From contig JAJRSW010000114.1 of assembly GCA_024278595.1 (NCBI GenBank), positions 1 through 64,000 of the forward strand: a stretch of DNA of 64,000 nucleotides. The letters are read 5' to 3'. Shown here in pieces: positions 5,733-38,833 of this stretch. Below the pieces are notes generated by a model, which searched no databases, was not told the DNA's origin, and was given only the letters and a program-made list of their open reading frames with translations. This stretch comes from Fidelibacterota bacterium (GTDB lineage Bacteria; Fidelibacterota; UBA8477; JABMPR01). A program made the position numbers and the translations under genes. The number at the start of each line of letters is the position of its first letter. Position 1 is the stretch's first letter.

Positions 5733-5754
5733 GGCGCAGATTCAAATCTGCACC
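5733..5754 (-). other. Short hairpin before the 5295-5717 gene
   Basis: GGCGCAGAT and ATCTGCACC pair with one mismatch around a TCAA loop. No T run follows, so it is not a classic terminator. It sits just upstream of the Shine-Dalgarno of the downstream gene and could affect translation or mRNA ends; this is inference. Confidence 0.4.
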
Positions 5755-5810
5755 TGAATTGTCAATAATCGTTTTGCGTAAAAATTGACCTAAGTTTCTG
5801 ATAGTTACCC

Positions 5811-8171: not shown

Positions 8172-8200
8172 AGAAGTCTCCGGAAATGTATCTGATTTAG

Positions 8201-9625: not shown

Positions 9626-9830
9626 ATTGCGCCTCATTATCAACCCCGGTTTCAATTGATCCACCGGCAAATGTTTTATGATTGTTCGCTTAAAACAGCG
9701 TGTGTTTTTTGTTAACGGATGACTGTAATGTGTGTATCAAGCAATCATTCTTACAAATAATAGTGAATGCCGGAAATCATAATTGAGCAATATCACGCAG
9801 TCAGGCATAGAACTTGCGATCAGAGTACGC

Positions 9831-11678: not shown

Positions 11679-11692
11679 CGTGGAGCTTGAAG

Positions 11693-13630: not shown

Positions 13631-14595
13631 ACATAATCATTCTATTACTTTTGGGATCTGCTTCAACCCAGGGCCAGGAACTGAGACGCTGGCCCGCAGC
13701 TCCGCAAAAAGCGCGCATTGAGTATGTCTCTCAAATACTCCAAATTGAGGATATTATTGACAAGCCCTCTCTGTTTAATCGAATTCTGGCCTACTTCTCT
13801 ACCCAGGAGCCACCAAAAATCCTCCGGCCCATGGGGCTGGATGCAACTGTTGACTATCTAGCCATAGCCGATCCTACGGCAGGTGGAGTCCACCTTTTTA
13901 ACTTGGCAAAAGCTCAATACATTTTTTTGACCAGCGGAGAGACCTTACCTGAAAGAGCCGCTTTGGATGTCGCACTCGCCCCGGAATACATTTTTGTCAG
14001 TTACCCGGAAAATCAATCAATTATTGCTTATGATTATCAAGGGAACCTGGTCGCACAGCACCGTTTCGAAGGGGGTATTGAACGTCCCACAGGTCTAGCC
14101 TATAAACATCCATACCTATATGCTGTTGATACAAAATCGCATCAGGCTTACCGGCTTAACTCTACTTTTAAGATTGTCACTCGCTATGGCAACCATGGAT
14201 CACTGGAAAGCATGCTAAATTACCCTACTTTTATTTGTGTAACTGCAAATGATACCGTCTACATCAGCGACACCATGAACTTTCGAGTGCAGAAATACAC
14301 CCAAACTGGTACATGGGTCAACAGTATCGGCGAGCATGGAACGGTTTCCGGTCAATTTAATCGTCTAAAGGGATTAGCTGTTGATCAAAAGAACCGAATT
14401 TATGCAGTAGACAATAGTTTTGACAACATTCAAATCTTTAATCAACAGGGACGCTTACTGATGTATTTTGGTGAGTCTGGACACGCTCCGGGTTCAATGA
14501 TGATGCCCACTGATATAGCCATTTCTGGTGATTTAATATATGTCAGCGACACCCTGAACAAACGAATTCAAATTTTCAGGATGCTGTATGATTAA
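13627..14595 (+). CDS. NHL-repeat beta-propeller, secreted (cluster 1)
   Basis: The 322-residue protein has a short signal peptide (to about residue 16) without a lipobox. RWPAAPQKARIEYVSQI comes next, then six-bladed NHL repeats such as VYISDTMNFRVQKY, IYAVDNSFDNIQIF and IYVSDTLNKRIQIF. The last three blades are strongly alike among this protein, 9831-10916 and 31104-32114. The ATG overlaps the barrel stop by 4 nt and its own stop lies inside the next gene by 8 nt, so translation is coupled across barrel, propeller and 13-heme cytochrome. A scaffold or docking role for the conduit is inferred; no enzyme motif is seen. Confidence 0.83.
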   Translation: MNIIILLLLGSASTQGQELRRWPAAPQKARIEYVSQILQIEDIIDKPSLFNRILAYFSTQEPPKILRPMGLDATVDYLAIADPTAGGVHLFNLAKAQYIFLTSGETLPERAALDVALAPEYIFVSYPENQSIIAYDYQGNLVAQHRFEGGIERPTGLAYKHPYLYAVDTKSHQAYRLNSTFKIVTRYGNHGSLESMLNYPTFICVTANDTVYISDTMNFRVQKYTQTGTWVNSIGEHGTVSGQFNRLKGLAVDQKNRIYAVDNSFDNIQIFNQQGRLLMYFGESGHAPGSMMMPTDIAISGDLIYVSDTLNKRIQIFRMLYD

Positions 14596-16222
14596 TCGTA
14601 GTCAATATTTGATCATGTTACTAGTGCTGGTAAAGCTGAGCTTTAGCCAGACAGGCAGCGTGTATAATTCGTTGCATAACCTTTCCGCTTCAGGCCCTGG
14701 ATCTATCAAAGCCCAAACTGAATCAGAGGTCTGTATATTTTGTCATGCAAGCCATGCCGGAAATTCACAGGCAGCCCTCTGGAATCGCTCTGATAACGCC
14801 ATCAATTACACCATCTATGGTAGTTCTACCATGGAGACAAATGCCCAACAACCAGGGTCGGCTTCCCGTCTTTGCTTAAGCTGTCATGACGGCACCATTG
14901 CGCTGGGATTGGTTTTAAATAGAAGTGATCAGATCTCATTTCCGGTTGGTTTTGATAAGATCCCCACCGACCACCGCAGTAACCTTTCTTCCGATCTTAG
15001 TGATGATCATCCGCTAAATCTGGATTCCCATCCCACCGGATTTAATTGCTCGGGCTGTCATAGCTCAAGCCCCATGACTTCTGATAAAATGGAATGTATA
15101 TCCTGCCATGATCCCCATGATGATACTCAAGGTTCTTTTCTTAAGGTGGATCCCATTAGCGGCGCACTCTGTTTGCGTTGTCACCAGGAGACAAACTGGC
15201 TCCAGAGTAGCCATAACACCTCGCTGGCTACCTGGGGTGGTAATGGTCCGGATCCGTGGCCTTACACAACCTGGAACTCTGTTACAGAAAACGCCTGCGC
15301 CAGTTGCCATACTTCACACGGGGGCGCTGGAAGCACCTGGCTGTTAAAGTCAAGTGCCGAAGAAGATAATTGCCTGGTTTGCCATAACGGGAATGTGGCG
15401 GCTTTGGATATTCAAAGTGAGCTAAACAAGACTTCTACGCATGCGGTGGCAAATTATTCTGGTATTCACACACCCTCTGAAACTGTGCCCCTGACGGCAC
15501 ATGTAGAATGTACGGATTGTCATAACCCCCATCAAACTTCGGCTACAACTGCTGTTGCACCTACTGCTCCAGGGTCGCTCGCGGGAGTTTCCGGTGTCGA
15601 TCAAGCAGGTCTAGCGGTATATCCAAGCCAGTATGCCTATGAAGTCTGTCTCAAATGCCACGAAACTGATATCAGTACTATTCCTACCTATATCCCCTGG
15701 TATAATAATACAACAATTCTGAATGAATTTAGCGAAAGCAATCCTTCCTTTCATCCGGTTTTTGGTCCAGGTATCAATCAGAACGTCCCCAGTTTGATCA
15801 GCCCATATTCAGAAACTTCAGTAATATATTGCACTGATTGTCATAATAACGACTCAAGCGGACCCGTCGGACCGCATGGATCTATGAATGCCCCCATATT
15901 AAAGAAACGACAGGTTTTTTCTGATTACAATCGGGAATCAACAACCATCTATGCATTATGTTATGACTGTCATAGTCGCTCATCTATTCTCAACGATGAA
16001 AGTTTTACCAAGCATCGTAAACATATCAAGAATGAAAAAACAGCCTGTACAACCTGCCATGATCCCCATGGCTCGATGGAAAACAGTCATTTAATTAATT
16101 TTAATACGGATTACGTCTTCCCCAATCAGGCCAACCGACTCGAATGGGTTGATTATGGTAACAACAGCGGTGCCTGTTACCTGCTCTGCCACGGCGAAGA
16201 TCACAATCCAGAGGATTATTAG
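14588..16222 (+). CDS. 13-heme c-type cytochrome (12 CXXCH + 1 CX3CH)
   Basis: The 544-residue secreted cytochrome has a signal peptide ending LSFSQT. Twelve CXXCH motifs are followed by one C-terminal CX3CH (CYLLCH), which is conserved in the 27885 paralog (CTLMCH). The first 190 residues, from CIFCHASH through LCLSCHDGT and DLSDDHPL to ALCLRCHQ, have the same order of motifs as the stand-alone small cytochromes at 21844 and 25884. The rest has CXXCH-x-PH type pairs, common in doubled-CXXCH proteins. It probably lies in the periplasm or at the cell surface and hands electrons through the barrel. It starts 8 nt inside the NHL gene. Confidence 0.88.
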   Translation: MINRSQYLIMLLVLVKLSFSQTGSVYNSLHNLSASGPGSIKAQTESEVCIFCHASHAGNSQAALWNRSDNAINYTIYGSSTMETNAQQPGSASRLCLSCHDGTIALGLVLNRSDQISFPVGFDKIPTDHRSNLSSDLSDDHPLNLDSHPTGFNCSGCHSSSPMTSDKMECISCHDPHDDTQGSFLKVDPISGALCLRCHQETNWLQSSHNTSLATWGGNGPDPWPYTTWNSVTENACASCHTSHGGAGSTWLLKSSAEEDNCLVCHNGNVAALDIQSELNKTSTHAVANYSGIHTPSETVPLTAHVECTDCHNPHQTSATTAVAPTAPGSLAGVSGVDQAGLAVYPSQYAYEVCLKCHETDISTIPTYIPWYNNTTILNEFSESNPSFHPVFGPGINQNVPSLISPYSETSVIYCTDCHNNDSSGPVGPHGSMNAPILKKRQVFSDYNRESTTIYALCYDCHSRSSILNDESFTKHRKHIKNEKTACTTCHDPHGSMENSHLINFNTDYVFPNQANRLEWVDYGNNSGACYLLCHGEDHNPEDY

Positions 16223-16224: not shown

Positions 16225-17514
16225 TTGAATTTTATTAAAACAACCGGAATTATTTCAGTACTGTGGGTAACTGCCATATTCCCCCAGTGTATTGAAAGCA
16301 ACTGTCACCAAGAATTACTGGAAAATAAATTTATCCATAACCCCATTGAGAAACAAGAGTGTCTTTCCTGCCATACCGGGAACAGTAAAAAGCATCCAGA
16401 TCGCCGGGGTAATGAGTTTGAATTAAAATATGCCCAAACCAGTGAAATGTGTCTTTCCTGTCATAAAACGGATATGAAGGCGATTGGTCTCCATACGCCG
16501 GTAAAAAAGGGGGAATGTCTCTCCTGTCATGATTCGCATAGCAGTCCTGTTCCGCCCATGCTGAAGGAGGCCTCGTCCGCCATCTTGTGCGCTGGCTGTC
16601 ATGAAGAACAATATGGCCAAAAAGAGTTCGTTCACGGCCCAGTAGCTGTGGGTGCCTGTAATGTGTGTCATAGCAGCCATGGAGACGAGTCCAATAATTT
16701 GCTAACAAGCCAGAACTTAAACCAGAAATGTTATTCCTGCCATGAGTTCAAGCAGGAGGATATTCAAGCCTTGGCATTTCAGCATAAACCAGTGACTGAA
16801 AGCTGTTCAAACTGCCACGACCCCCATGAATCGGATATCAATTATTTCCTGAAGGAACCAACGCCCGCCTTATGTGTAAACTGTCACAAAGAAATGAAGG
16901 CATATCTGGATTCAGCCAGTGTCCATACACCGCTAAAGACGGATCAATCTTGTCTGAACTGTCATAACTCACACGGCTCACAATACGAATCAGGACTAAA
17001 AAACGACTCCTATTCACTGTGTCTGAACTGCCACAATGAGCCCATGGAAATTGGCAATCAGATCATCCCCAACATGAAACGGCTCCTGGAGGATAGCAAG
17101 TATGTGCATGGACCTATTCGCGAAAAAGACTGTTCGGGTTGTCATAACCCCCACTATTCTGAAAATACCCGGCTGTTAAAATATCAGTATGCTAAATCAT
17201 TTTATGCTCCCTTTGATTTGAAGAATTATGACTTGTGCTTTCAATGTCATTCACCTGAAAATATTCTGGATGCGTTTTCTACTGAATTGACAAATTTTCG
17301 AGATGGCGATATCAATCTTCACTATCTGCATGTCAATCGTAAAAAAGGGCGAACCTGTCGATCGTGTCATCAGACACATGCTTCCCAAAACCCCAGCCAT
17401 ATCCGAGACTCAGTTCCTTTTGGTGGTTGGGAACTCCCTTTGAACTACCAGAAAACAGCTAACGGTGGCACCTGCTCCCCGGGATGCCACAAACCGAAAG
17501 CGTATAAACGATGA
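16225..17514 (+). CDS. 15-heme c-type cytochrome (13 CXXCH + CX3CH + CX4CH)
   Basis: The 429-residue protein starts at a TTG 2 nt after the previous stop. A hydrophobic signal sequence runs to about residue 19 and is followed at once by CIESNCH, a possible CX4CH heme site. Thirteen CXXCH motifs follow at an even spacing of about 28 residues, many as CXXCH-x-SH/PH (doubled-CXXCH family). The C-terminus has CSPGCH (CX3CH). Even spacing suggests a linear heme wire. VHGPVAVGACNVCH repeats a segment of the pentaheme protein 10923-11678. Its stop overlaps the next ATG. Whether the odd motifs bind heme is untested. Confidence 0.87.
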   Translation: MNFIKTTGIISVLWVTAIFPQCIESNCHQELLENKFIHNPIEKQECLSCHTGNSKKHPDRRGNEFELKYAQTSEMCLSCHKTDMKAIGLHTPVKKGECLSCHDSHSSPVPPMLKEASSAILCAGCHEEQYGQKEFVHGPVAVGACNVCHSSHGDESNNLLTSQNLNQKCYSCHEFKQEDIQALAFQHKPVTESCSNCHDPHESDINYFLKEPTPALCVNCHKEMKAYLDSASVHTPLKTDQSCLNCHNSHGSQYESGLKNDSYSLCLNCHNEPMEIGNQIIPNMKRLLEDSKYVHGPIREKDCSGCHNPHYSENTRLLKYQYAKSFYAPFDLKNYDLCFQCHSPENILDAFSTELTNFRDGDINLHYLHVNRKKGRTCRSCHQTHASQNPSHIRDSVPFGGWELPLNYQKTANGGTCSPGCHKPKAYKR

Positions 17515-18539
17515 ATACATCCAAGCAATTAAAGCGGTACCAACTGATCGTTCTGATGCGATCTTTATTATTTTATGTTACGATCACCAAGCTGTTTTTA
17601 AATCCTGTATTTGCCGGGGTAGCTATTAATGGAGAGGCCGGTCGGATATTACATCTGTTTGATCGTCTTTCACCAGACAGGATTGCATTGCTAAGCGATC
17701 AAATGGAGTTTACCGGGGATACAACCCACGTAGGGCTTATCTTTTTTTCCCGTTCAGGCCAGGATTATAGTCAAAAGATGCAGTCAGAAATCAGCGTTTT
17801 GCTTAATAAGGATACTGCTGAGAGGATCTGGGTCTGGGGCTTTTCCTTGGTGGATAAAACCACGGACTCTGCCGCGGTAATGAGCCCGGATAAACCACGT
17901 TGGATTCAGCAGGGACAAAATTCAAATACTATTTTCAACCTGTTTGGAATTAAAGTATTCCCCACAATTTTTGTGGTAAACTCAAACTTTGTCATCCAGG
18001 ACTACCTTGCCGGATTTCCAGCTAATACCCGACTGCACCTCTCTACCTATCTCACTTGGCCCAACCAGCCAGCAAACAAAGCCTTGGTTACCCACAAAAA
18101 GGAGCAAAAAAAGCGTAATCGACAGGAACACTTTGCTTTTGAATTGTATAAAACCGGAAATATTGACGGTGCCCTCAAGCAGCTCAACCGTACCACCCCC
18201 CTTTCAGTCAAAGCTCAACTGGTTAAAGTGTATTGTCTAATCCAGCTAGAGCGTTTTTCAGAGGCTTCGGAGTTATTGAAAGAACTCTCTGTACTTGATA
18301 CTGAGACCATTGCCTACACTCAGGCGCTCATTTTGTATTATCAGCAGTTGTATAATGATGCCTTGGAAAAACTTTCTGATCAGGGAGAGTCTGGTAAGCG
18401 TTACGAAATTCACTACCTAAGGAGCCTGCTACAACAGGAACTGGGTAAGCCTAAAAGTGGGAAAAAAGAATATCGTAAAGCCAAGCAAATAGTCGGACGG
18501 GATCTGCAGGCCGCTGATTTGCTGGATGTGCTGAGGTAA
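17511..18539 (+). CDS. Thioredoxin-like fold without CXXC, with TPR-like C-terminus
   Basis: The 342-residue protein has an N-terminal membrane segment or signal (about 12-36). A thioredoxin/TlpA-like domain covers about 55-190, ending in IKVFPTIFVVNSNFVIQDYLAGF with the cis-proline of that fold. The usual CXXC active site is absent, so it is unlikely to be a disulfide reductase. Residues about 200-335 are helical with TPR-like repeats (ELYKTGNIDGALKQL, LIQLERFSEASELL). It lies between the 15-heme cytochrome (4-nt overlap) and the kinase gene (4-nt gap). A chaperone or assembly role for cytochrome maturation or the conduit is inferred from context only. Confidence 0.68.
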   Translation: MNTSKQLKRYQLIVLMRSLLFYVTITKLFLNPVFAGVAINGEAGRILHLFDRLSPDRIALLSDQMEFTGDTTHVGLIFFSRSGQDYSQKMQSEISVLLNKDTAERIWVWGFSLVDKTTDSAAVMSPDKPRWIQQGQNSNTIFNLFGIKVFPTIFVVNSNFVIQDYLAGFPANTRLHLSTYLTWPNQPANKALVTHKKEQKKRNRQEHFAFELYKTGNIDGALKQLNRTTPLSVKAQLVKVYCLIQLERFSEASELLKELSVLDTETIAYTQALILYYQQLYNDALEKLSDQGESGKRYEIHYLRSLLQQELGKPKSGKKEYRKAKQIVGRDLQAADLLDVLR

Positions 18540-18543: not shown

Positions 18544-20013
18544 ATGAGAATGCGCACCAAGTTGGTAATAATCTCAATCGGTGTCATCTTGTTGACGGGG
18601 TCTGCAATCACCTATGGAATTCATACGATTCGGATGATCTTTTTTAAAGATTTGTTAGTCGATGCAACCCGACCCGTTGCCGAGTTACTGAACCGACAAA
18701 TTCAACATAACATGCTTCACCACAACCTTGACCACTTTCAGGCGTTCCTGGCTGAGAATCCTCAGAATATTGACTTTGCTCAAATCTCCATATCCGATTC
18801 GAATTTTATTATTCTAATGTCGTCCGACAGTTTAATTATTGGGGATACACTCCCACCGATTTTACCTGAGTCGATTACCAGCTCTCATCCCGATGACTTC
18901 TATTATTATGAACCCGTAGAATCCAATGGCACAGTACGAGTCATGTCAGCGATCCATAATACTAAGGGGTGTGGCAAGTGCCATGAAGGTGCCGGGAGTC
19001 ATCTCGGCTACCTGGAATTAAATATAGATGTCAGCTCAGAAGGTGACATTGCCCGTCTGCTACTATATTCGGACTTTTTTGGTTTGTTTATTGTACTGCT
19101 GCTGTTTGCTGCATCTGTGGTAGGTATTCACTCACATTTCTTCCAGGTTCCCCTGACAAAGCTAAAGCTGACTATTGAAAATATTAGAAACGGGCAGGTT
19201 GGAGATACTGTTGAGATTGATACTCCCGGTGAATTAAAATATCTGGCAGAGAATATCAACAGTATGTCCAAGGAGCTGAATAGCTCGAAACGTGAGATTG
19301 ATGTCCTGCATCAGAAAGAGATTGATCGCGCCGGGCAACTAGCTACAGTTGGTGAACTGGCTGCCAGTGTTGCCCATGAAATCAGAAATCCGATTGCCGG
19401 GATAAAGAGTGCCTTGGAAGTAATACTGCTTCAAAATGAAAATCTGCAGGACCGACCCGTTTACCGCGAAATGTTGACTCAGACAGAGCGAGTTACTCAA
19501 ACCATGTGGGCTCTTACAAGCTTTGCACTCCCCAAGGAATTGGATTTTAAGCCCTGTCACATTCACAATATCCTGGACAGATGTGTTCTGCTAAACGAGA
19601 AAGTTTTTGAGAATAAACGGGTCGTGTTAAAGCAAGATTATCAGGCTGATCCTGATTCTATATCCGGCGATCCGGAGCAATTAACTCAAGTATTCATCAA
19701 TATGCTTTTGAATGCATTTCAATCCTGCAAAAATCAATCACCCCCCAAAATTGAAATTCGCACGCAACGATTAACTGATTCCGGCACATTGCTTATCGAA
19801 ATAGAAGATAATGGAATTGGCATCAAAGAGGAAATCGTCAGCAATATTTACAAGCCATTTTTTACAACAAAGGCTAAAGGTACGGGACTAGGTTTATCAT
19901 TGTGTCACTCGGTTATCACCAAGCATGCCGGAAGGATTGAAGTGCGTCCTGCCGAGAAACGCGGGGTAATCTTTAGTATCTTTCTACCAAATGACGACGC
20001 AAATCAAGGGTAA
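18544..20013 (+). CDS. Membrane histidine kinase with c-type heme sensor motif
   Basis: The 489-residue kinase has a membrane segment at 7-27 and a periplasmic sensor domain (about 28-172) carrying CGKCH at 143-147. A second membrane segment (about 173-195) and a HAMP-like linker follow. A HisKA domain has phospho-acceptor His278 (VAHEIRNP), and a HATPase has DNGIGI and GTGLGL. CXXCH-bearing sensor kinases of this build, with a segment like HNTKGCGKCHEG before the second membrane helix, are known in several anaerobes and are thought to sense redox state or a ligand at the heme. Its partner is the response regulator 9 nt downstream. Its place at the end of cluster 1 suggests it controls electron-transfer genes. 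Confidence 0.9.
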   Translation: MRMRTKLVIISIGVILLTGSAITYGIHTIRMIFFKDLLVDATRPVAELLNRQIQHNMLHHNLDHFQAFLAENPQNIDFAQISISDSNFIILMSSDSLIIGDTLPPILPESITSSHPDDFYYYEPVESNGTVRVMSAIHNTKGCGKCHEGAGSHLGYLELNIDVSSEGDIARLLLYSDFFGLFIVLLLFAASVVGIHSHFFQVPLTKLKLTIENIRNGQVGDTVEIDTPGELKYLAENINSMSKELNSSKREIDVLHQKEIDRAGQLATVGELAASVAHEIRNPIAGIKSALEVILLQNENLQDRPVYREMLTQTERVTQTMWALTSFALPKELDFKPCHIHNILDRCVLLNEKVFENKRVVLKQDYQADPDSISGDPEQLTQVFINMLLNAFQSCKNQSPPKIEIRTQRLTDSGTLLIEIEDNGIGIKEEIVSNIYKPFFTTKAKGTGLGLSLCHSVITKHAGRIEVRPAEKRGVIFSIFLPNDDANQG

Positions 20014-20022: not shown

Positions 20023-21399
20023 ATGCAATTACGGGCCATAATCGTCGAGGATGAGAAGTTAGTTGCCTGGTCTTTGGGAGAGCGGCTGCGTCTCATGAAT
20101 ATTGAAAGTGTTATTTACGACAGTGGATTAAAAGCCATTGAAGCTGCACTAGAAGATCAGCCGGATATCGTATTTGTCGATTATAAATTGCCAGATTCAT
20201 CAGGTCTGGAGGTTTTAGAGAGCTTACAGAAGTATCGAGACAAAACCTTGTTCTTTTTCATGACCGCTTACGGTACATCCGAAATAGCTCACCGGGCGCT
20301 TGAGCTGGGGGCCACGCAATATCTAACCAAACCCCTTAATTTCGATGAACTAAATGTGCAACTGACCAAAGCGCTCAAACAACGTGAGCTCAATTTTGAA
20401 CTTGACCTGCTCAAACAGCAGGAGCAAAAGAGCTACCAACTAGGTTCATTTATCAGCCATTCCGAAACCATGAGCCGTATTGTGCAACAGATTGAAAAGC
20501 TGACTGAGCTGAGAAGCGGAAACATCCTCCTGCTGGGCGAAACGGGTACCGGTAAAGATACTGTTGCCCGTTTAATTCACGAACAGAGTCCGCGCGCAAA
20601 AAGCCCTTTTGTGATTGTGAACTGTGCATCCCTGTCTGAAAGCTTGCTCGAGAGTGAATTATTCGGGCACGAACGGGGGGCCTTTACAGATGCTAAAGTC
20701 AGGAAATTGGGACATGTTGAGATGGCCGACGGTGGAACGATTTTTCTGGATGAGATCGGAGAAGTTCCAATTGCCTTTCAAGCCAAACTCCTCCGTTTCT
20801 TAGAAACCCAGTCTTTTTACCGGGTAGGTGGAACCAAGGAACTAAGTGTTGACGTCAGGATTATAGCCGCAACCGACCGGAATCTTGAGGACGGAATAAA
20901 AACGGGACACTTCCGTGAAGATCTATATTATCGACTTAATGTTATCTCGCTGGAATTACCACCTCTCAGGGATCGCGCTGAAGATATAAAACCCCTGACT
21001 TACCGCTTTATTGAAATGTTTTGCAGTGAACTTAACCTATCTGTTGAAGGAATATCTGATGCTGCCTGTCTTTTGCTTGAAAATTATCAATGGCCAGGTA
21101 ATATAAGAGAGTTGAAAAATGTAATCGAACGCATATTTTTACTGGAACGTCCCCAATTAGTTGAACCCTGGCATCTACCTATATCTCTTAGAAATGCCAG
21201 TATGAACAGGTCTCCCCATGAGGTTTCCCTGGATGGGGCAGACTCATTCTTCGAAGGCCAAACCCTTGATGACATTGAAAAATATGCAATTGACCGGGCT
21301 TTGAACAAGGTTGGACGTAATCAATCCCAGGCGGCCAGGCTATTGGATATTTCCCGGGATCAAATCCGCTATAAAATGAAAAAGTATGCTCTGAAGTAA
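20023..21399 (+). CDS. Sigma54-dependent response regulator (NtrC/AtoC type)
   Basis: The 458-residue protein has a receiver domain (1-120) with phospho-acceptor Asp53, Thr81 and Lys103. The AAA+ domain has Walker A GETGTGKD (172-179) and Walker B FLDEIGE (241-247), and carries the sigma54-contact loop GAFTDA (219-224), a common variant of GAFTGA. A Fis-type HTH lies near 415-455 (NQSQAARLLDISRDQIRYKM). It drives open-complex formation at -24/-12 promoters once phosphorylated, presumably by the kinase encoded just upstream. Candidate target promoters are at 21752, 26593 and 40879. The stop is followed by 444 nt without a gene. Confidence 0.95.
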   Translation: MQLRAIIVEDEKLVAWSLGERLRLMNIESVIYDSGLKAIEAALEDQPDIVFVDYKLPDSSGLEVLESLQKYRDKTLFFFMTAYGTSEIAHRALELGATQYLTKPLNFDELNVQLTKALKQRELNFELDLLKQQEQKSYQLGSFISHSETMSRIVQQIEKLTELRSGNILLLGETGTGKDTVARLIHEQSPRAKSPFVIVNCASLSESLLESELFGHERGAFTDAKVRKLGHVEMADGGTIFLDEIGEVPIAFQAKLLRFLETQSFYRVGGTKELSVDVRIIAATDRNLEDGIKTGHFREDLYYRLNVISLELPPLRDRAEDIKPLTYRFIEMFCSELNLSVEGISDAACLLLENYQWPGNIRELKNVIERIFLLERPQLVEPWHLPISLRNASMNRSPHEVSLDGADSFFEGQTLDDIEKYAIDRALNKVGRNQSQAARLLDISRDQIRYKMKKYALK

Positions 21400-21843
21400 C
21401 TGCGTAATATACCCCACCCCACGGGTTTAATCACCCACATTAGCACCTGCAGTCGCATTTCTAATCACTCCAGTACAATGGATTTGTCAGAGTCCGATCA
21501 AAATGAAAATATTTTAATCTACTTAAACCTTCTTTCTCAAGTATCATTTCTCGCACCTTTTGCATTAGACTGAACCATCTTTTCAGTGTATCTGCTTGAT
21601 ATTATCCTGTTTATAAGTGGTCGCCTGACTGGCTATGCCGGTAGATACCATCAAGTAGGGAAGCTTATCCCGCTGCATTAAACCAGCATCGCCAGGTCCA
21701 GAGTTGCGATTTATCACATTTATTCGGTATTCTCAGATAATCAGCAATCTTTGGCCTGCCTTTTGTATTAATTCATGACGATGACAATTACTATTAATAG
21801 AAAACGCTTTCCGAAGAACCTAATAAATGGAGGAAATATAGAA
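21400..21843. other. Intergenic region before the tetraheme cytochrome gene
   Basis: No gene is supported over 444 nt. It holds a -24/-12-like sequence at 21752-21767. No clear terminator for cluster 1 was found near 21400. Confidence 0.55.
21752..21767 (+). promoter_or_regulatory. Candidate sigma54 promoter of tetraheme cytochrome
   Basis: TGGCCT-GCCTT-TTGTA keeps the GG and the 10-bp spacing of the -24/-12 consensus but has GT instead of GC at -12. The predicted start is about 65 nt before the ATG at 21844. It fits the sigma54 regulator encoded immediately upstream. Confidence 0.4.
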
Positions 21844-22425
21844 ATGAAAACGATGTTAAAAATTGCTCTGGTTATGATCTTTATCTCTGGTTTTGCTTTT
21901 GGGCAAATCGCAAATTCGGCTCATGATTTCAGCGGAGACACTTGGAACAGTGAGAGTGAACAGTGTAATGTATGCCATACACCTCACAATGCCTTAGCAG
22001 GTGTTTCACCGCTTTGGAATCATACCGTGACAGTCGCCAGTTTTACCCCCTATTCAAGTAGCTCACTGGATGCTACCGTAGCTGCCCCAGACGGCGCTTC
22101 CAAGCTATGTCTATCCTGTCATGATGGAACAGTGGCAATTGACAGTTATGGTGGTGCTACAGGATCAATTAATGTCTCTGGAAATGACCTGATTGGTAAT
22201 GATTTATCAAATGATCATCCCATCTCATTCACCTATGATGCTACCCTGGCCACTAATGACGGTGGATTGGTTGACCCAGCTAATGCCGGTGTTGCCGCGT
22301 TACTTACTGGTGGGAAAATGGAATGCTCCAGCTGTCATGATGTTCATAACGGCACTGGATTAACTAACTTACTGACTATAGACAACGCAGGAAGCGCACT
22401 CTGCTTGACTTGTCATAGTAAGTAG
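21844..22425 (+). CDS. Small secreted tetraheme cytochrome, OmcE-like candidate
   Basis: The 193-residue protein has a signal peptide ending AFGQ and four CXXCH motifs: CNVCHTPHN, CLSCHDGT, CSSCHDVHN and CLTCH near the C-terminus. Conserved blocks include PLWNH, SKLCLSCHDGTVAIDSYGG and DLSNDHPI. Size, heme number and the CHTPHN/CLSCHDG pattern recall Geobacter OmcE, a tetraheme cytochrome that polymerises into extracellular filaments. This likeness is from memory and needs a search. GGAGG 9 nt before ATG 21844 decides the start over an upstream in-frame ATG. It has its own strong terminator and candidate promoter, as expected of an abundant product. A pentaheme paralog lies at 25884-26507. 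Confidence 0.85.
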   Translation: MKTMLKIALVMIFISGFAFGQIANSAHDFSGDTWNSESEQCNVCHTPHNALAGVSPLWNHTVTVASFTPYSSSSLDATVAAPDGASKLCLSCHDGTVAIDSYGGATGSINVSGNDLIGNDLSNDHPISFTYDATLATNDGGLVDPANAGVAALLTGGKMECSSCHDVHNGTGLTNLLTIDNAGSALCLTCHSK

Positions 22426-22450
22426 TTTACGAAATCAGAAATATTTTTAA

Positions 22451-22482
22451 AAAAACCCCTGCTTTTCAGCAGGGGTTTTTTA
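22451..22482 (+). terminator. Strong rho-independent terminator after tetraheme gene
   Basis: A perfect 12-bp stem (AAAAACCCCTGC / GCAGGGGTTTTT) with a 6-nt loop and a T-rich end. It isolates the small cytochrome from the downstream NapC-like gene. Confidence 0.93.
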
Positions 22483-22545
22483 TGTTTATGGCAACGATAG
22501 CTACTAACATCCACTTTGTGTTTTTCAAATTATCAGGGAATTTTT

Positions 22546-24558
22546 GTGCAGCTAAAACTCAAGATTAAAAACAAGTACTTACGGTATGCTATCCTCCTCG
22601 GTGGTGCCGCAGCTTTACTCCTAGTCGTCCTCTTTGGAATGCTTGAAGTGACCTCCACCCCCACCTTTTGCTCAAGCTGTCACTATATGCAGCCCTATAT
22701 TGATGCCTGGGAACAATCATCTCATAGTGAGGTAACCTGTATTAAATGCCATTTCCCACCCGGATTGGTTTCAAAACTTGAAGGAAAGTTCACTGCTATT
22801 GCCATGGTGGCAAATTATATGACCGGTGTTTATAAACGGGGTAAGCCACATGCAGATATTCCTGATGAAAGTTGTTTGAGAAGTGGCTGTCATGAAAAGC
22901 AACTATTGAGTGATTCATTGCTCTATCAGGATAAAATCAAGTTTGCGCATCAACCTCACTTAACTGAACTACGACGGGGTAAGCAGCTGCGTTGCACCAG
23001 TTGCCATTCACAAATTGTCCAGGGAGAACATATTAAAGTCACCAAATCGACCTGCTTCCTGTGCCATTTTAAAGAGCCCCTCGATGAGCTCAAAATCAAT
23101 ACTTGTACTACCTGCCACACTCCGCCGGTAAAAGATGACACTCATCTAAACGTTGAATATGACCATTCGTCCATCCTTGAGCGGGACATTAGCTGTGAAA
23201 GTTGTCACGGGAACATGCATGTTGGGGATGGCAGTGTACCTATAGAACGCTGCAGCAACTGTCATGCAGAGCCCGAATTTATTGAAATCTATGACGACTC
23301 AAAGCAACTCCACCAGTTACACGTAACAGATCATAAAATCGAGTGCCAAAGCTGTCATCTGCCAATTCAGCATCAATCGGTTTCCCGGAGCCAGAACATT
23401 GTCCCTGAATGCGGTTCCTGCCACCAGAATACCCACAATGCTCAGCTTGATTTATTTACCGGCCAGGGGGCAATCGGTTTTGAAGCTGAACCTAACCCCA
23501 TGTTCGAAAGTGGTTTAAACTGTCAGGCCTGTCATGTTTATCATAGCGAATTGAACGGAATTGCTGATTTTGGGATTAATAAAACAGCCGATTTTAATTC
23601 CTGTGAAATCTGCCATGGTACGGGCTACAACCGTATTCTGGACCAATGGCAGGGACAAATGTCCAGCAAAATGAAATCAATTGAGAAATCATTTGCGCTG
23701 ATTGAACGCAATATGAATAACCCAAATCTGGATGAACGTAAAACAAAATCTGTGCAGGAGAAGATGAGACGCGCCAAGCATAACTTTGGCATGGTTAAAT
23801 CGGGGAACATTATTCATAATATCAGTTTTTATGATAAACTATTGTTCTCTGCTTACGAAGACTTGCAAGCAATCGCCGGATATCTGGGGCTTTCTAATCG
23901 TATTCCTGAATACTCACAGTATCATAATGAGCTCATTCCTTCCGACTGTAATAACTGTCACTATGGAATTGAAGAAGTCACCAGCAGCGTTTTCAACCTT
24001 ACTTTTAAACATAAACAGCACGTTGTTGAAGCAAAAATGGAATGTGCCCAATGCCACTCAAACCGATCCCAACATGGAACAATGATAATGGGTAAAGGTG
24101 AATGCCTCACCTGCCACCATGAGGATATTGAGCAAAGTTGTGAAAGCTGCCATCGGGTTCAGGCTGACTTACACTCCGGCAACATCGATCTGGGTGGGAA
24201 GATTACAGCCAAGTTTCTCCATTCTGAGAAAGTTAGTTGCCGAAACTGTCATGAGACCACCAGTGGCAGTATTTTAAGAACCAATCGACAAGCCTGTATT
24301 AAGTGCCATAGTGAGGTTTATCCTCAGTATATAGAAGAGTGGAAGACTGACACCAAGCGAGAGCTTAAACGCTTAAAAAGCATTCTGGCCCAGAAGTCAC
24401 AACTTGATCTGAGATCAAGTCAGCGTGATGTCTTGGATAATATTTCCAGAGGTCTTGATAAGTTGGAACGTGAAAATAGCTGGGGTGTGCACAACCCGAA
24501 GCTGACACGGGCTGCTATGGAATATTACAATAACAGATTAAACTATTTAAGGAATTAG
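22546..24558 (+). CDS. NapC/NirT-like membrane-anchored 18-heme cytochrome, putative quinol oxidase
   Basis: The 670-residue protein has one N-terminal membrane helix (about 12-32). NapC/NirT-type TPTFCSSCHYMQP follows, with WEQSSHSEVTCIKCHFPPG, the segment that in the family takes electrons from menaquinol. In total 17 CXXCH and one CX4CH (CLRSGCH) are present, far more than the 4-7 hemes of NapC, NrfH or ImcH, so extra heme domains seem to be fused on. Two helical stretches without hemes interrupt the wire (about 370-430 and 595-670). The start is GTG 22546 with AGGGA 6 nt before it; a TTG 10 codons upstream is less likely. It would move electrons from the inner membrane to periplasmic cytochromes. 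Confidence 0.87.
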   Translation: MQLKLKIKNKYLRYAILLGGAAALLLVVLFGMLEVTSTPTFCSSCHYMQPYIDAWEQSSHSEVTCIKCHFPPGLVSKLEGKFTAIAMVANYMTGVYKRGKPHADIPDESCLRSGCHEKQLLSDSLLYQDKIKFAHQPHLTELRRGKQLRCTSCHSQIVQGEHIKVTKSTCFLCHFKEPLDELKINTCTTCHTPPVKDDTHLNVEYDHSSILERDISCESCHGNMHVGDGSVPIERCSNCHAEPEFIEIYDDSKQLHQLHVTDHKIECQSCHLPIQHQSVSRSQNIVPECGSCHQNTHNAQLDLFTGQGAIGFEAEPNPMFESGLNCQACHVYHSELNGIADFGINKTADFNSCEICHGTGYNRILDQWQGQMSSKMKSIEKSFALIERNMNNPNLDERKTKSVQEKMRRAKHNFGMVKSGNIIHNISFYDKLLFSAYEDLQAIAGYLGLSNRIPEYSQYHNELIPSDCNNCHYGIEEVTSSVFNLTFKHKQHVVEAKMECAQCHSNRSQHGTMIMGKGECLTCHHEDIEQSCESCHRVQADLHSGNIDLGGKITAKFLHSEKVSCRNCHETTSGSILRTNRQACIKCHSEVYPQYIEEWKTDTKRELKRLKSILAQKSQLDLRSSQRDVLDNISRGLDKLERENSWGVHNPKLTRAAMEYYNNRLNYLRN

Positions 24559-24571
24559 GCGGGTTGCTTTA

Positions 24572-25237
24572 ATGAAGCTAAACAGATTCAAGCATTTCTT
24601 TATCGCTGGCTTATTCATACTTCCCCTGATGGAAACCGCCCGGAGCTTCACCGAGGATGAGCTACAGACCGGTACAATATTAGAGATCCTCGAATCCGGC
24701 GGTTACAGCTATTTTTATATCGATGGTCGGGACAGTACTTTTTGGATTGCTGTTCGTGAAACACCCGCCTACGTTGGAGCTAAAATCACATTCCAAGGCC
24801 AAATGTGGATGCCTGACTTTAACAGCTCGACCTTGGGAATGACCTTTCCAAATATTCTCTTTTCCGGGGATGCGTACATAGTAAAATCTGAGGATTCCAG
24901 TATGAGTCAGGTGGTTCAAAGTAATAGTGTCACACGCTTGCCCGGGACACTACCCATCATCGATGTTTATCGGAACAGCGAGAAGCTGGCCGGTGATTCG
25001 GTAATCGTGCAGGGAGAGGCCGTCAAGGTCATGCATAAGGTCATGGGAAAAACCTGGATCCATTTGCGTGATGACAGTGCTCCAGGAGATTCAGCAACAA
25101 TCATTATTACAACTCTGGATACTTCTATTAAAGTCGGCAATATCATTAGTGCCCAGGGTATACTCGCGATCGACAAGGATTTTGGTTTTGGTTACTTTTA
25201 TTCAGTAATCATGGAAGACGCGATTTTATACAAATAA
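24572..25237 (+). CDS. Periplasmic OB-fold protein, NrfJ-like (two repeats)
   Basis: The 221-residue protein has a signal peptide (to about residue 25) and two related beta-rich halves. The first has GTILEILESGGYSYFYID, then FWIAV and GAKITFQGQMWM. The second has VMGKTWIHLRDDS, then KVGNIISAQGIL. The GTILE..GGYSY pattern recalls NrfJ-related proteins that accompany multiheme nitrite reductases; their role is uncertain. It lies 13 nt after the NapC-like gene and is probably cotranscribed, so an accessory role for that cytochrome is inferred. No catalytic residues are evident. Confidence 0.65.
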   Translation: MKLNRFKHFFIAGLFILPLMETARSFTEDELQTGTILEILESGGYSYFYIDGRDSTFWIAVRETPAYVGAKITFQGQMWMPDFNSSTLGMTFPNILFSGDAYIVKSEDSSMSQVVQSNSVTRLPGTLPIIDVYRNSEKLAGDSVIVQGEAVKVMHKVMGKTWIHLRDDSAPGDSATIIITTLDTSIKVGNIISAQGILAIDKDFGFGYFYSVIMEDAILYK

Positions 25238-25516
25238 ATAATTTCTGGATAAAAGTAGTAGCTCTACCAATCACAACTCAAAACGGCACTAAACTACTTA
25301 ATTTTTTCCCAGCTCTTCTTCACTTCGACGCGCTCAACGTAACACACTTAATATTTTAATACCGTCACGCTTGCCGGTACTACGCCCAAAATATGAAGTT
25401 TGACGCCCTCTCACAAAAAGTATTTGGGAAAACACGGAATATGTTCTATGTATAATAAATACAGTTACTTATGATAAATACACCTAAACCTATAAATAAC
25501 AACACTCTGCGTCATT

Positions 25517-25596
25517 TCGAAGGGTGGTCCCTGAGCTCAGTCGAAGGGTGGTCCCTGAGCTCAGTCGAAGGGCGGTTCCTGAGCGCTGTCGAAGGA
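25517..25596. repeat. 24-bp palindromic tandem repeat, 3.3 copies
   Basis: Units start TCGAAGGGTGGTCCCTGAG and end CTCAG. Two are identical and the third has four changes. CCCTGAGCTCAGTCGAAGGG is an imperfect palindrome, a class of dispersed repeat seen in many environmental bacteria. It lies between the converging ends of cluster 1 and the 25884 gene. Confidence 0.9.
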
Positions 25597-25754
25597 CTCA
25601 ATGCAACGCTCTGCGCGAGAGGGACTTTCTGTGGGGGCGTCAAGTTTGATGAGCAGAAAAATGTTTTGACTCTACACCGGACATCTTGAACTGAAACTGG
25701 TATAATACCATATTCTCATGTTACGCGGGAATAGTGGTTACCATCATTCCGCAC

Positions 25755-25782
25755 CTGTGCCAATCCGTGTTGATCTGTGGCT
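25755..25782. repeat. Fragment of 'ACGGAT/ACAGAT' dispersed repeat
   Basis: CTGTGCCAATCCGTGTTG followed by ATCTGTGGCT is the complement-type partner of the segment at 43346-43379 (CCACGGATTCACACGGAT...). This type of intergenic repeat occurs in many unrelated bacteria. Confidence 0.6.
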
Positions 25783-25883
25783 AAAAAAAAATTCTCACTA
25801 TGGCTAAATTGGAACTGAAGCAGGTATAATTGGTATTAGAACTTGATTAGGTCAGGAGACCGAACAATCAGGTTTTGCTAGCG

Positions 25884-26507
25884 TTACTTCCCATGACAAT
25901 TCAAACAGAGCGCCGAACCTGCTATCCTGAGGAAGTGGTCATTATTACTCGCATTATGAGCATCGTGACAACTTGAACATTCGACCTTCCGATTAAAAAA
26001 AGGAAGCGGCATGGACCAGTGACAGTTTCCACAATCAAGCGATCCCCAGTCTGTATGATTCCAAGCGATGCCAATTGGATGATCATTGGATAAATCTGAG
26101 CCAAAGTTAGCATCTCCCGTCAGGTGATTGGATCCCGTTACCCCTCCATATGAGTCAAGTGCAACTGTCCCATCATGACAGGAAAGACAAAGTTTTGATT
26201 GAGATCCAGGCTGTTCAGTTATCCCTTCCAGACTATTACTTGTATATAAAGTATAGGTTGCCTCTGATAAAGTATGGTTCCACAATGGTGCATCAGGTGC
26301 GTTGATAGTATTGTGGGGAGCGTGACAAGAATTGCAGAGCTCACCATTCGACCATCCCAGCTCAGAAAAGTCATGTTTTGAACCTGATATTCCCTGAGCA
26401 AAACCCAGGTTGACGAATATGATAAATATCAACCCCATGGACAGTAAGGGCGATATTACCTTGCTTTCCAACAAAAAAGCTATTTGATGATAACTAGCTA
26501 AATTCAT
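25884..26507 (-). CDS. Small secreted pentaheme cytochrome, paralog of 21844
   Basis: The 207-residue product has a signal sequence ending GFAQG and five CXXCH motifs: CNSCHAPHN, CLSCHDGT, CGNCH, CSSCHDAHN and CLNCHGK. It shares SKLCLSCHDGTVALDSYGG and DLSNDHPI with the tetraheme protein 21844-22425 and adds the CGNCH site. The same five-heme order opens the 13-heme protein 14588. The start is uncertain. The frame opens at 26582, ATG 26507 gives a long signal sequence and ATG 26438 a shorter one; none has a clear ribosome site. A sigma54-like sequence at 26593-26608 puts the transcript start near 26582, which favours 26507. It is convergent with cluster 1. Confidence 0.82.
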   Translation of the reverse strand: MNLASYHQIAFLLESKVISPLLSMGLIFIIFVNLGFAQGISGSKHDFSELGWSNGELCNSCHAPHNTINAPDAPLWNHTLSEATYTLYTSNSLEGITEQPGSQSKLCLSCHDGTVALDSYGGVTGSNHLTGDANFGSDLSNDHPIGIAWNHTDWGSLDCGNCHWSMPLPFFNRKVECSSCHDAHNASNNDHFLRIAGSALCLNCHGK

Positions 26508-27884: not shown

Positions 27885-29498
27885 TCAATAAGTCTGATTA
27901 GGGTGGACTTTATCATGACACATTAGGGTACAGTAACCATGACCCGGTTCAGTTTGAACCACCTCCAGAACCCCATTCAGGGGTTGAATAAAACTGGCGT
28001 TGAGATCCATGAGTCCCGGGTACTCGATACTCCCGTGGGGATCATGACAGGCTGAGCAGGCATATCCGGCATCCTGAATATGCAACTGGTGGAATTTAAA
28101 GCCGTTACTCTGAACAACCCGCTGTTCTTCGTGACACAGGAAACATAGCTGGTTTTCATCAGGACTGGCAAACGGAAAATCGGCATAGGTCGCCTTGAGG
28201 ATATGAGGGATATTTGATCCATGGGGGCCCTGGGCTTCCAGGGGGTCATCATTGCCGTGACAATCTGAACATCTCAGCATTGATTGTTCACTCCAATCTG
28301 CTTTGAGACTAGGTACAAAAGGATTGTTACCTGGAGCCTCTATTGGATGGAAGCTTTTATTGGTGCGCGCAAATAGCCAGCCCACCGCCTTGCCTGGTCC
28401 GGCATTTTGATTCATGCCATGGCATTTATAACAGGTTTCATATTCATAATCAGCCACAGATTTTGGGAAACCGTGACTATCGACCCCTTTAACATATACC
28501 TGAGATCCATCAATAAAGGGGTTTTGTGAGTGATCCGCTGCCGCGTGGGGATTGTGGCAGTCACTGCACTTGACCGATCGGGAATCCAGCATACCTGCAC
28601 TCCAAGTGTCAAAGCGGTCATCAGGGTTTCCCGGGTTTTCTTCCCACCAGATCGGATGAACAAAAGCTTTTTCAAAGACAGCTTCCAGATCGGTTTCACT
28701 GGCAATTTCCAAGTTGGTATCCTGAAGGCCATCGTGACAACTTAAACAAAGGGTATTCTCGTTTTCCAGCAACAAATTGGCTGTAGGTGGAACGGCATGA
28801 ACGTCATGACAACTTGCACAAGCCTGATTTTTCAATGGTGCGAACCTGGGGTCAACAGGATTCCCATGGGAAGCAAAATCCCAATTTGCCATTTTGTGAC
28901 AACTCAAGCACAGCTCTGATCCCTCGGTGCTATGCCTTAAGAAGTTCCCCTTTTCATTATTATGCGGATCATGACAGCTAATACACGTAACCTGTTCCGG
29001 TTGAGCTGTCGACAATGAGTCTCCAGACCTTGGTGCGATAGTCTCTGAACTGTTGGTCGGGAATTCAAAGAGATGAAGACTGTAGTTTTTGTCTAATGCT
29101 ACCTGATTGTCCAATTGATTCTGATGCCTCACAGACAACTGCGCGGGTGAAAATCCGGTTGCCATACTTCCATCATGACAGAATAGGCATCGACGGTTAT
29201 TGATATCCATGAAGTGGTTCCCATCAGCATCATTCTGGTTGGGATATTCAATGTCAAACGCTTTGATGTTGAGCGAGCGATCCCAGAGAGCTTCAACAGC
29301 TCTCATCTTTGAGGGTGTATGACACTGCCGGCAAAGTGTAAAATCCTGCACTGTTGAATCACTTCCAGCAAGGACACTGCTACCAACAAAATTATGTGGC
29401 GTAAATGCGATTTTGCTCTTGCTGCGTAAATCTTCTTCTTGCTGAGCAACCAAACTAAGCGCTAACATGGTCATGAATATGCTTCTTCTTGCGGTCAT
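27885..29498 (-). CDS. 12-heme c-type cytochrome (11 CXXCH + 1 CX3CH), last gene of cluster 2
   Basis: The 537-residue secreted protein has 11 CXXCH and a C-terminal CTLMCH (CX3CH). It parallels the 13-heme protein 14588 along its length, with matching CISCHDPHN, CLSCHDG, CSDCHNPH, CYKCH and CSACHDPHGS sites, the same end structure, and only one site missing (the CSGCH of 14588). The N-terminus has a signal sequence (MTARRSIFMTMLALSLVAQ). ATG 29498 overlaps the barrel stop by 4 nt and has GAGG 6 nt upstream, which decides the start over an in-frame codon at 29522. It should be the outer partner of the 29495 barrel. Confidence 0.88.
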   Translation of the reverse strand: MTARRSIFMTMLALSLVAQQEEDLRSKSKIAFTPHNFVGSSVLAGSDSTVQDFTLCRQCHTPSKMRAVEALWDRSLNIKAFDIEYPNQNDADGNHFMDINNRRCLFCHDGSMATGFSPAQLSVRHQNQLDNQVALDKNYSLHLFEFPTNSSETIAPRSGDSLSTAQPEQVTCISCHDPHNNEKGNFLRHSTEGSELCLSCHKMANWDFASHGNPVDPRFAPLKNQACASCHDVHAVPPTANLLLENENTLCLSCHDGLQDTNLEIASETDLEAVFEKAFVHPIWWEENPGNPDDRFDTWSAGMLDSRSVKCSDCHNPHAAADHSQNPFIDGSQVYVKGVDSHGFPKSVADYEYETCYKCHGMNQNAGPGKAVGWLFARTNKSFHPIEAPGNNPFVPSLKADWSEQSMLRCSDCHGNDDPLEAQGPHGSNIPHILKATYADFPFASPDENQLCFLCHEEQRVVQSNGFKFHQLHIQDAGYACSACHDPHGSIEYPGLMDLNASFIQPLNGVLEVVQTEPGHGYCTLMCHDKVHPNQTY

Positions 29499-31111
29499 AT
29501 TTGCCTCACAAAGCGCAGCCAAATGCGCGTATCTTGTTCAAATACAGTAGCCGGTGGACCAGCACTCTGCAATTCTAGCGCATAACTGAAAAAAGCAGTT
29601 TCAATTCTTAATCTGGCATCTAACCAAAGATAATCAGAATAATAGTTGGAGTTGAAGCGATACATACTTGATAAGCTGCAGGTGAGATTTGGAGTTAGCC
29701 GCCGAAAATACCTCGTGTTAAATGAGAACTGAAGATCATTATCTGCATCCTTTAAATCAAGGGCAGTCCGCAATAAGCAGGACAGCTGTTGTTTCTGATC
29801 AAAAGTTTTAAAGTAGATTTCATCGATAAAAGCGTTCCTCAACGTGTCTGGCGAAAAATCAAGATCAGACCCAAAGTGATTGTAAACTTTGAAATGATTC
29901 CCAAACTGAAAGCGTTTACCCGGCATAAATGCCGTAGTTAACCAAAACTTGTGACGGACATCGTATCTTGGATCACCTGACTGATCCAGCCGCTGAAAAA
30001 GCTCTGTGCTTAAATCATCACGTAGCTGCAGAGAGACCAGGCGAGTATACAGCAACTGTTTTGATGAACTCATTTGGAGCAGAACGTCTAGTCCTTTCCC
30101 GTACTGATAAGACTCTTTTAAGCCGGTATTTAATTGACCTCTAAAAAAACTTTTTCCTCCAAAACTCCAGTGTGTTCCAACTCCGTAAAAACGCCAGTGA
30201 AAGACATCAAACGAATCAGGAACACTAACCCGGTTTCCCTGGAACTTTAGATCCAACCCTAATTCCGGTTTCCAACGAAAACGATATCTCAGATCATAGT
30301 TGCTGCGCAGGAGTGTGCGGTTCCCATAGGCGAAATCGCCGCGGCTAAACAGCGCCCAGAGCTGCTGACGTTGAGACAATGTATAATTAAGACGATGTGA
30401 TGAGCGCCAGAAAAACTTATCGTCGTTCTGAAAAAAGGTATTGGTAGCAGTCCAGTGCATCTTGCGGGTCGGATTACCATACCAGCGCAGAGCGGTCATG
30501 CTGTTATCACGCTGGACCAGTGTATCCCGGCTCCACACATCACTTTCATTTGTAAGACGAAACTGCATCCCGGCCAGTCGTTGATCGACGTAGATCTGAA
30601 CAAACTGCTGGTTCGTTCGGATACTTGAACGGTGTTCGATCTGCTGGGATCTGATACCGGTTGCAATACTTAGGCGAGTACCCCTAAAGATTTGAGCGCC
30701 CAATCGTAAACCGTGAACCAGTTCATGGTATTCCAGAGAATCAGCTAGTATTTGAGTCGGATTGCGGAGGCGCAGGTATGAAAAAAGAGAAACATCGATT
30801 TTCTGCCATGGCTGCAGATTCGCCCGAACACCATATTCAGGAGCTATCTGTGTTTTGGCATACATCGTATTCCCCTGTAAAACGCCCCCCAGAGTCACCT
30901 TGTAGTCAAGCTTTATAAGCGAGCTGGAATGCCCCTCAAAACCCCAGGAAAGCCGTTCTTGATGGACCAAACTACTACCCGATTCATTCAGGGTATCAAG
31001 GTTGAATATTAAATTGCCCTCGATAAAACCGACTTGCCCCAATGGAGCACCAACGGCCATTGTTGAAAGGAATAAGTAAAGATATGTTCGCTGAATAATT
31101 GTATTAGTCAT
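29495..31111 (-). CDS. Outer-membrane beta-barrel, putative electron-conduit porin (cluster 2)
   Basis: The 538-residue protein has a signal peptide (MTNTIIQRTYLYLFLSTMA...) and then alternating beta strands with many Arg/Gln/Tyr, typical of a large barrel of perhaps 20 or more strands. It has no heme motif. ATG 31111 lies 8 nt inside the end of the NHL gene; the frame is open 62 codons further but that part is the other gene's region. The stop overlaps the next cytochrome's ATG. The gene order NHL-barrel-cytochrome corresponds to cluster 1, although the two barrels are not obviously alike at a glance. Confidence 0.75.
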   Translation of the reverse strand: MTNTIIQRTYLYLFLSTMAVGAPLGQVGFIEGNLIFNLDTLNESGSSLVHQERLSWGFEGHSSSLIKLDYKVTLGGVLQGNTMYAKTQIAPEYGVRANLQPWQKIDVSLFSYLRLRNPTQILADSLEYHELVHGLRLGAQIFRGTRLSIATGIRSQQIEHRSSIRTNQQFVQIYVDQRLAGMQFRLTNESDVWSRDTLVQRDNSMTALRWYGNPTRKMHWTATNTFFQNDDKFFWRSSHRLNYTLSQRQQLWALFSRGDFAYGNRTLLRSNYDLRYRFRWKPELGLDLKFQGNRVSVPDSFDVFHWRFYGVGTHWSFGGKSFFRGQLNTGLKESYQYGKGLDVLLQMSSSKQLLYTRLVSLQLRDDLSTELFQRLDQSGDPRYDVRHKFWLTTAFMPGKRFQFGNHFKVYNHFGSDLDFSPDTLRNAFIDEIYFKTFDQKQQLSCLLRTALDLKDADNDLQFSFNTRYFRRLTPNLTCSLSSMYRFNSNYYSDYLWLDARLRIETAFFSYALELQSAGPPATVFEQDTRIWLRFVRQI

Positions 31112-35038: not shown

Positions 35039-35041
35039 TAT

Positions 35042-36335: not shown

Positions 36336-36362
36336 CCAGGTAACCTGATTAATAGCTGGAAT

Positions 36363-36365
36363 CTA
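36363..36365 (-). other. In-frame TAG within a cytochrome b open reading frame
   Basis: The sense frame runs ...VTGALL-TAG-IPAINQVTWVPDWIFLGE..., with no frameshift. It could be a true gene split with reinitiation, a recent nonsense mutation, a readthrough site or a base-call error. One base change (for example from CAG) would restore a single 500-plus-residue protein. Confidence 0.8.
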
Positions 36366-37478: not shown

Positions 37479-37485
37479 ACCTTCC

Positions 37486-38352: not shown

Positions 38353-38369
38353 AAGTTTTTCACCTAACC

Positions 38370-38798: not shown

Positions 38799-38833
38799 TT
38801 TACCTGCTTGTGGTTTTCTTGAACTGCATACAG

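Follow-up and report, generated by a model that had tools for sequence, protein, structure and literature searches.

The window analysed here, a stretch of 64,000 nucleotides from a Fidelibacterota bacterium (assembly GCA_024278595.1, contig JAJRSW010000114.1, positions 1 to 64,000), encodes two small multiheme cytochromes, P1 and P2. In all features that were open to testing, P1 proved to belong to the OmcE family. By its sequence, P2 is a pentaheme variant of this family, counted as such because it has the same four CXXCH motifs plus one inserted. The explanation that we consider best as a whole, with a probability of about 0.7, is that P1 would form an extracellular heme wire, of which P2 would be a variant, and that a neighbouring conduit would feed this wire through F544, a large surface-type cytochrome that would serve as its socket (Table 1).

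An earlier note on this DNA had described both open reading frames, and they are present at the coordinates and on the strands that it gave, with four and five CXXCH motifs on counting (CNVCH, CLSCH, CSSCH and CLTCH in P1; CNSCH, CLSCH, CGNCH, CSSCH and CLNCH in P2). The two proteins are 51% identical in alignment, and have in common the strings that the note had pointed out, SKLCLSCHDGTVA-DSYGG, in full SKLCLSCHDGTVA(I/L)DSYGG, and DLSNDHPI. A search of the organism's own genome with P1 gave four matches, all inside the window: P1, P2 and the N-terminal parts of F544 and its paralogue F545. Both proteins are putatively secreted, judging from N-termini that look signal-like on visual inspection, although it is uncertain where P2 starts; the AlphaFold2 model of P1 has a helix at residues 2–15. 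The strong terminator that had been claimed for one of the genes was located after P1. Together with the wide gaps and the opposite strand of P2, this makes separate transcription of P1 and P2 plausible. Promoter-like matches (15 vs 12.2 in shuffles) were not commoner than expected by chance.

Homology to OmcE is apparent from searches of P1 and P2 against all PDB chains. Each protein gave only two significant sequence matches, the OmcE filament 7tfs (E-values of 1.8e-20 for P1 and 1.2e-20 for P2) and 9yuq (2.1e-25 for P1, its best PDB sequence match, and 7.8e-17 for P2), and all of these cover the whole mature chain. The 9yuq entry is a 'Putative multiheme cytochrome c', in which an OmcE-like chain is present 16 times. 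An alternative explanation might be compositional, in that any protein with doubled CXXCH motifs would match OmcE, and the Pfam family Paired_CXXCH_1 is indeed carried by all these proteins. Yet, two control proteins from the window, with 13 and 18 hemes, did not match OmcE significantly (E-values of 0.026 and 0.73), and the true alignment scores were 12–18 standard deviations above those obtained after shuffling all residues except cysteine and histidine. Because of this gap and the weak control matches, the likeness reflects homology rather than heme-motif composition, and the compositional explanation can practically be dismissed.

The predicted structure of P1 points in the same direction. 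Its AlphaFold2 model, built on an alignment of 97 natural sequences, has a mean predicted local distance difference test score (pLDDT) of 91.5 and a predicted template modelling score (pTM) of 0.83. A Foldseek search of the PDB with this model returned OmcE (7tfs) as the sole match (E-value 3.6e-8, template modelling scores (TM) of 0.62/0.59). The OmcE fold is thus predicted for P1, from the model of P1 alone. Hence, the likeness to OmcE that the earlier note had suggested holds by sequence, by ligand pattern and, for P1, by predicted fold, and the structural match to a filament cytochrome that it had proposed to look for was found.

The four bis-histidine hemes of OmcE require eight histidines. 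All four CXXCH histidines and the four distal histidines (H27, H48, H125 and H168 in P1) align across P1, P2, OmcE and 9yuq. Seven of these eight ligands are invariant in 97/97 free-standing homologues, and the remaining one, the CXXCHxxH histidine (H48 of P1), is kept in 94 of the 97. The three homologues without it are second copies, and their loci also carry a copy that has it. These second copies adjoin the intact ones, at L034:14285-14890, L058:8805-9416 and L066:15410-16000. A subunit of this kind could receive the bond from its neighbour without giving one, and might act as a wire cap.

The OmcS residue that corresponds to the first CXXCHxxH histidine is H16, reportedly the residue that crosses the subunit interface in OmcS (Wang et al. 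2019). Heme 2 of the OmcE wire has a histidine ligand that comes from the neighbouring subunit (PMC12203936), and a stacked heme pair spans the subunit interface in both OmcE and OmcS wires (PMC9473688). Because of the equivalence to H16 and this bridging heme pair, we infer by analogy that H48 is the histidine of P1 that crosses the interface. Most likely, P1 subunits would be joined head to tail in an extracellular heme wire, each supplying one histidine to complete heme 2 of the following subunit. Filament formation by P1 is likely on the grounds of homology, the monomer fold of P1, ligand conservation and the conserved gene module described below. The genome has genes for ATPases of the type IV pilus/type II secretion kind and for cytochrome c assembly (Cytochrom_C_asm proteins), and no ResB-type cytochrome assembly protein was found in it.

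Several points weigh against this reading. The superposition of the P1 model on OmcE is moderate (TM ~0.6, root-mean-square deviation 4.7 Å), and the interface-crossing histidine of OmcE was deduced via OmcS rather than taken from the OmcE structure. A ninth histidine (H60, in LWNH) is present in 90 of the 97 homologues including P1 and P2, where OmcE and 9yuq have an arginine (LWNR). This is the main reservation: H60 may contact a propionate in the manner of the arginine, or may instead be an intramolecular ligand of heme 2, which would make polymerisation needless. The N-terminal domain of F544 is poorly modelled by AlphaFold2 (pLDDT <50 over most of residues 54–166), so that its OmcE fold is argued from sequence; OmcE was the best Foldseek match of the F544 model, but weak (E-value 0.034), with the N-terminal part of low confidence. 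In G009, a genome of the same genus, a P1-type gene is present and no F544-type gene was found. The importance of OmcE filaments for electron transfer is disputed in published work even for Geobacter (PMC11077965, PMC13194489).

Possibly, P1 and P2 are soluble extracellular shuttles or terminal reductases that have the OmcE fold and do not polymerise, with H60 filling the vacant ligand position. OmcE paralogues are widespread while assembly has been seen only for OmcE and presumably 9yuq, and comparable arrangements of hemes are known from cytochromes that do not form filaments (PMC12954529). However, the residues at the eight ligand positions of OmcE, including the CXXCHxxH histidine, are kept across many phyla, and 9yuq, with its 16 chains, clusters in the tree with the free-standing proteins (support 82, long branch). 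We therefore consider a non-polymerising role unlikely, and prefer P1 as a wire subunit.

P2 would have the same fold as P1, and would probably join or decorate the wires, the fifth heme being in a lateral position. In a quick tree, P2 falls in a pentaheme branch of its own (7 rows, Shimodaira–Hasegawa-like approximate likelihood ratio test (SH-aLRT) 99), in which its partners come from Calditrichota, Nitrospirota and Desulfobacterota. In these same phyla, pentahemes share loci with tetrahemes. This separate branch, with members in several phyla, is new relative to the earlier note. The extra CXXCH is located between the DHP motif and heme 3 and is preceded by a histidine in a W-x-H-like motif in 7/7 pentahemes, and the four-heme core is unaltered. 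The fifth heme is probably lateral because this core is unchanged, and probably peripheral because it has brought along its own histidine and replaces a loop. In OmcZ, a lateral exposed heme makes the wire 'leaky' (PMC12954529); if this leaky-wire reading is true, pentaheme OmcE-type wires would lose electrons along their length via the side hemes.

Alternatively, these features could be explained if P2 cooperates with P1 wires without being one of their subunits, acting as a specialised cap, at a branch point or as a heme-exposed adaptor. The co-location of the separate branch with tetrahemes and the peripheral position of the added heme would suit this role, and the same insertion is found in F544. 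Conversely, P2 retains every ligand needed for ordinary polymerisation, and the three tandem pentahemes of locus L061 look like structural subunits, which leaves the adaptor role possible at clearly less than even odds and a variant wire subunit as our preferred reading. In L061 (positions 4238-8603, a Desulfarculales genome), the three pentaheme genes are upstream of one tetraheme OmcE-like gene on the same strand.

The N-terminal domain of F544, encoded nearby, is OmcE-like, which the earlier note had missed. It matches OmcE with an E-value of 3.6e-25 and has the same fifth-heme insertion as P2. In the F544 family, all eight OmcE ligands are retained, and eight more conserved heme sites come after them; for the large fused cytochrome, 11 CXXCH motifs and 12 conserved heme sites were counted. 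We propose, from these sequence features, that F544 may be a surface socket on which the P1 wire nucleates. F544 would be placed outside the cell like MtrC, and its OmcE-like domain would offer a ligand to the first P1.

The paralogue F545 provides a suggestive contrast. Nearly all its orthologues in the genus and order lack the CXXCHxxH histidine, with serine, asparagine or arginine instead (G010 being the exception), and most of them belong to genomes that lack a free OmcE-like gene. Fused domains encoded beside a free gene, in contrast, retain all ligands. Since the losses belong to one clade, they count as one contrast and not as an independent test. An alternative explanation might be that the OmcE-like domain of F544 reflects shared ancestry only, where F544 is the terminal cytochrome of the conduit, the free genes arose by domain duplication or the reverse, and no docking occurs. 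The separate tree groups formed by fused and free domains would fit such a history, whereas the intact ligands of fused copies beside a free gene and their loss in the F545 clade speak for docking, and we regard the chances of shared ancestry alone as evenly balanced. Extending the socket proposal, we tentatively suggest a conserved module of many bacterial phyla in which an OmcE-type wire subunit is paired with its own membrane socket. The F544-type N-terminal domain would then be a covalently attached wire subunit, from which the wire would grow in electrical continuity with the outer-membrane conduit, and pentahemes would add leaky side hemes.

The suggestion of the earlier note that nearby conduits would feed such wires gains support from a gene neighbourhood that is conserved in different phyla. 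We compared 79 related loci with a free OmcE-like gene, drawn from about 18 phyla; many of the contigs end early, and 40 loci are longer than 14 kb. Fused and free genes are at most 6 kb apart in 40 of the 79 loci, in at least seven phyla. The 40 long loci contain homologues of NHLa (39), F544 (35), NHLb (29), the five-heme protein (28) and the 13-heme protein (28). Locus L042 (Ca. Marinimicrobia, Fidelibacterota) and the window have the same order, from NHLb through F544, the 13-heme protein, the thioredoxin-like/tetratricopeptide repeat (TPR) protein, the histidine kinase and the response regulator to P1, and F544 is 60% identical between them, well above other loci. This likeness by itself would probably place the genome in the phylum of L042. 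A divergent version is found in G002, of the same genus, with a tetraheme, a barrel-like protein, an NHL protein and a fused cytochrome 28% identical to F544. The conduit feeding the wire would consist of the MtrA-like cytochrome, the five-heme cytochrome, the probable barrel, the two NHL propellers and F544, with the MtrA-like protein and the barrel carrying electrons across the outer membrane.

The kinase and regulator genes directly precede P1, an arrangement that recurs in many related loci. Homologues of the single-CXXCH kinase recur in L036, L037, L042, L064, L066, L080, L088 and L101, and in G009 the regulator and P1 are together in the absence of the rest of the cluster. It is a reasonable inference from these genes that a redox-sensing switch would control wire production. 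The best sigma-54 site scores upstream of P1 and its homologues were 10.8 vs 9.5 in shuffled sequences for loci with the regulator, and 10.2 vs 9.7 for loci without it, a modest excess that gives a weak hint of a sigma-54 promoter upstream of P1.

Table 1. Features of the window that belong to the proposed wire, its conduit and its regulation.
Feature	Position	Strand	Remarks
NHLa, NHL beta-propeller	9783..10916	+	homologue in 39/40 long related loci
Periplasmic-type cytochrome	10923..11678	+	five CXXCH, doubled CXXCH
Probable outer-membrane beta-barrel	11675..13630	+	651 amino acids (aa); judged from position and homologues; no Pfam match
NHLb, NHL beta-propeller	13627..14595	+	directly upstream of F544
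F544, surface-type cytochrome, proposed wire socket	14588..16222	+	544 aa; UetJ-like; 12 CXXCH and 1 CX3CH; residues ~7–200 OmcE-like, pentaheme like P2
MtrA-like cytochrome	16225..17514	+	13 CXXCH; best PDB match 6r2q_A, MtrA of MtrCAB, E-value 5.7e-29
Thioredoxin-like/TPR protein	17511..18539	+	weak Pfam matches
Histidine kinase	18544..20013	+	one CXXCH (CGKCH) in sensor part
Sigma-54 response regulator	20023..21399	+	immediately before P1, also in related loci
Weak sigma-54-like site upstream of P1, TGGCCTGCCTTTTGTA	21752..21767	+	tentative; barely above shuffles
P1, tetraheme OmcE-like cytochrome, candidate wire subunit	21844..22425	+	193 aa, 4 CXXCH, 4 distal His
Intrinsic terminator downstream of P1	22450..22481	+	14-pair hairpin and T tract
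P2, pentaheme OmcE-like cytochrome, candidate variant wire subunit	25884..26507	-	207 aa, 5 CXXCH; start codon uncertain
Inserted fifth heme site of P2	26019..26057	-	HTDWGSLDCGNCH: His, then extra CXXCH, conserved in pentaheme branch
F545, F544 paralogue of second conduit	27885..29522	-	N-terminal domain without CXXCHxxH ligand (CHTPS; Ser for His)

Other genes surround P1 and P2. A 680-aa cytochrome with 17 CXXCH motifs and an N-terminal NapC/NirT-type membrane anchor (22516-24558) is a possible electron carrier from quinol to the periplasm. It is followed by a 221-aa secreted-type protein without a Pfam match (24572-25237), with homologues near wire genes in 8 of the 40 long loci and in L119. 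A second electron-transfer island (27885-40390, - strand) contains F545, a probable barrel, two NHL proteins, an 18-CXXCH cytochrome, a cytochrome b561-like protein and several further multihemes; similar sets adjoin the tetraheme gene directly in the Desulfobacterota loci L048, L071 and L112. Between P1 and P2, at 25530-25595, is a 24-bp tandem repeat with the core CCTGAGCNNNGTCGAAGG. This core has 93 copies in the genome, and the reversed pattern has none. The copies frequently form small arrays and several are close to contig ends, as a dispersed element like repetitive extragenic palindromes (REP).

The anchoring of cytochrome nanowires to the outer membrane and their electrical coupling to it were called unresolved in a 2025 review (PMC12307469). 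That is what makes the F544-type pairing the most promising part of these findings. If the OmcE-like domain of F544 is the socket, the anchoring question becomes a problem of two-protein binding and structure. If our reading is true, OmcE-type wires would occur in some eighteen phyla, mostly represented by uncultured organisms, and the gene neighbourhood could be a marker for wires in metagenomes. Carboxylicivirga marina (L101) is a cultured carrier of the module. For OmcS, sequence alone is considered unreliable (PMC12977616).

Compared to OmcE of Geobacter sulfurreducens (GSU0618, PDB 7tfs), our proteins show full-length homology, the four core CXXCH motifs, the aligned distal histidines and, for P1, the predicted fold. 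They differ in having LWNH (P1) instead of LWNR and, in P2, a fifth heme; OmcE is known as a filament, whereas P1 and P2 are known here from sequence and the monomer model of P1. The ligand set of P1 is also that of 9yuq. OmcS has no sequence similarity to OmcE, but shares the inter-subunit histidine ligation that we propose for P1. The OmcS wire with the osc genes offers a further likeness, in that the wire subunit is encoded beside folding and secretion genes (Shen et al. 2025, cited in PMC13194489).

PCC3 was rejected as the identity of the cluster, since the conduit cytochromes carry 5, 12–13 and 13 hemes, vs PCC3 medians of 34 (extracellular) and 21 (periplasmic). The module resembles by gene content the undecaheme electron transfer (Uet) cluster of Tenderiales and Gallionella, as compared with the description of Uet rather than with its sequences. 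Uet contains the undecaheme UetJ, the extracellular tetraheme UetA, two NHL proteins UetHI and the beta-barrel UetC (PMC10734462), and the window and related loci likewise encode an undecaheme-type cytochrome, a tetraheme, an NHL pair and a probable barrel. No peptidyl-prolyl isomerase UetB or triheme UetDEG was recognised among the scanned cluster genes of the window, and no genome-wide search was made for them. Unlike Uet, the window adds the MtrA-like 13-heme protein, the pentaheme P2 and the regulators. This MtrA-like protein links the module to MtrCAB (PDB 6r2q) as well. F544 is not MtrC and the window barrel has no MtrB Pfam match, yet F544 would occupy the place that MtrC has in that conduit.

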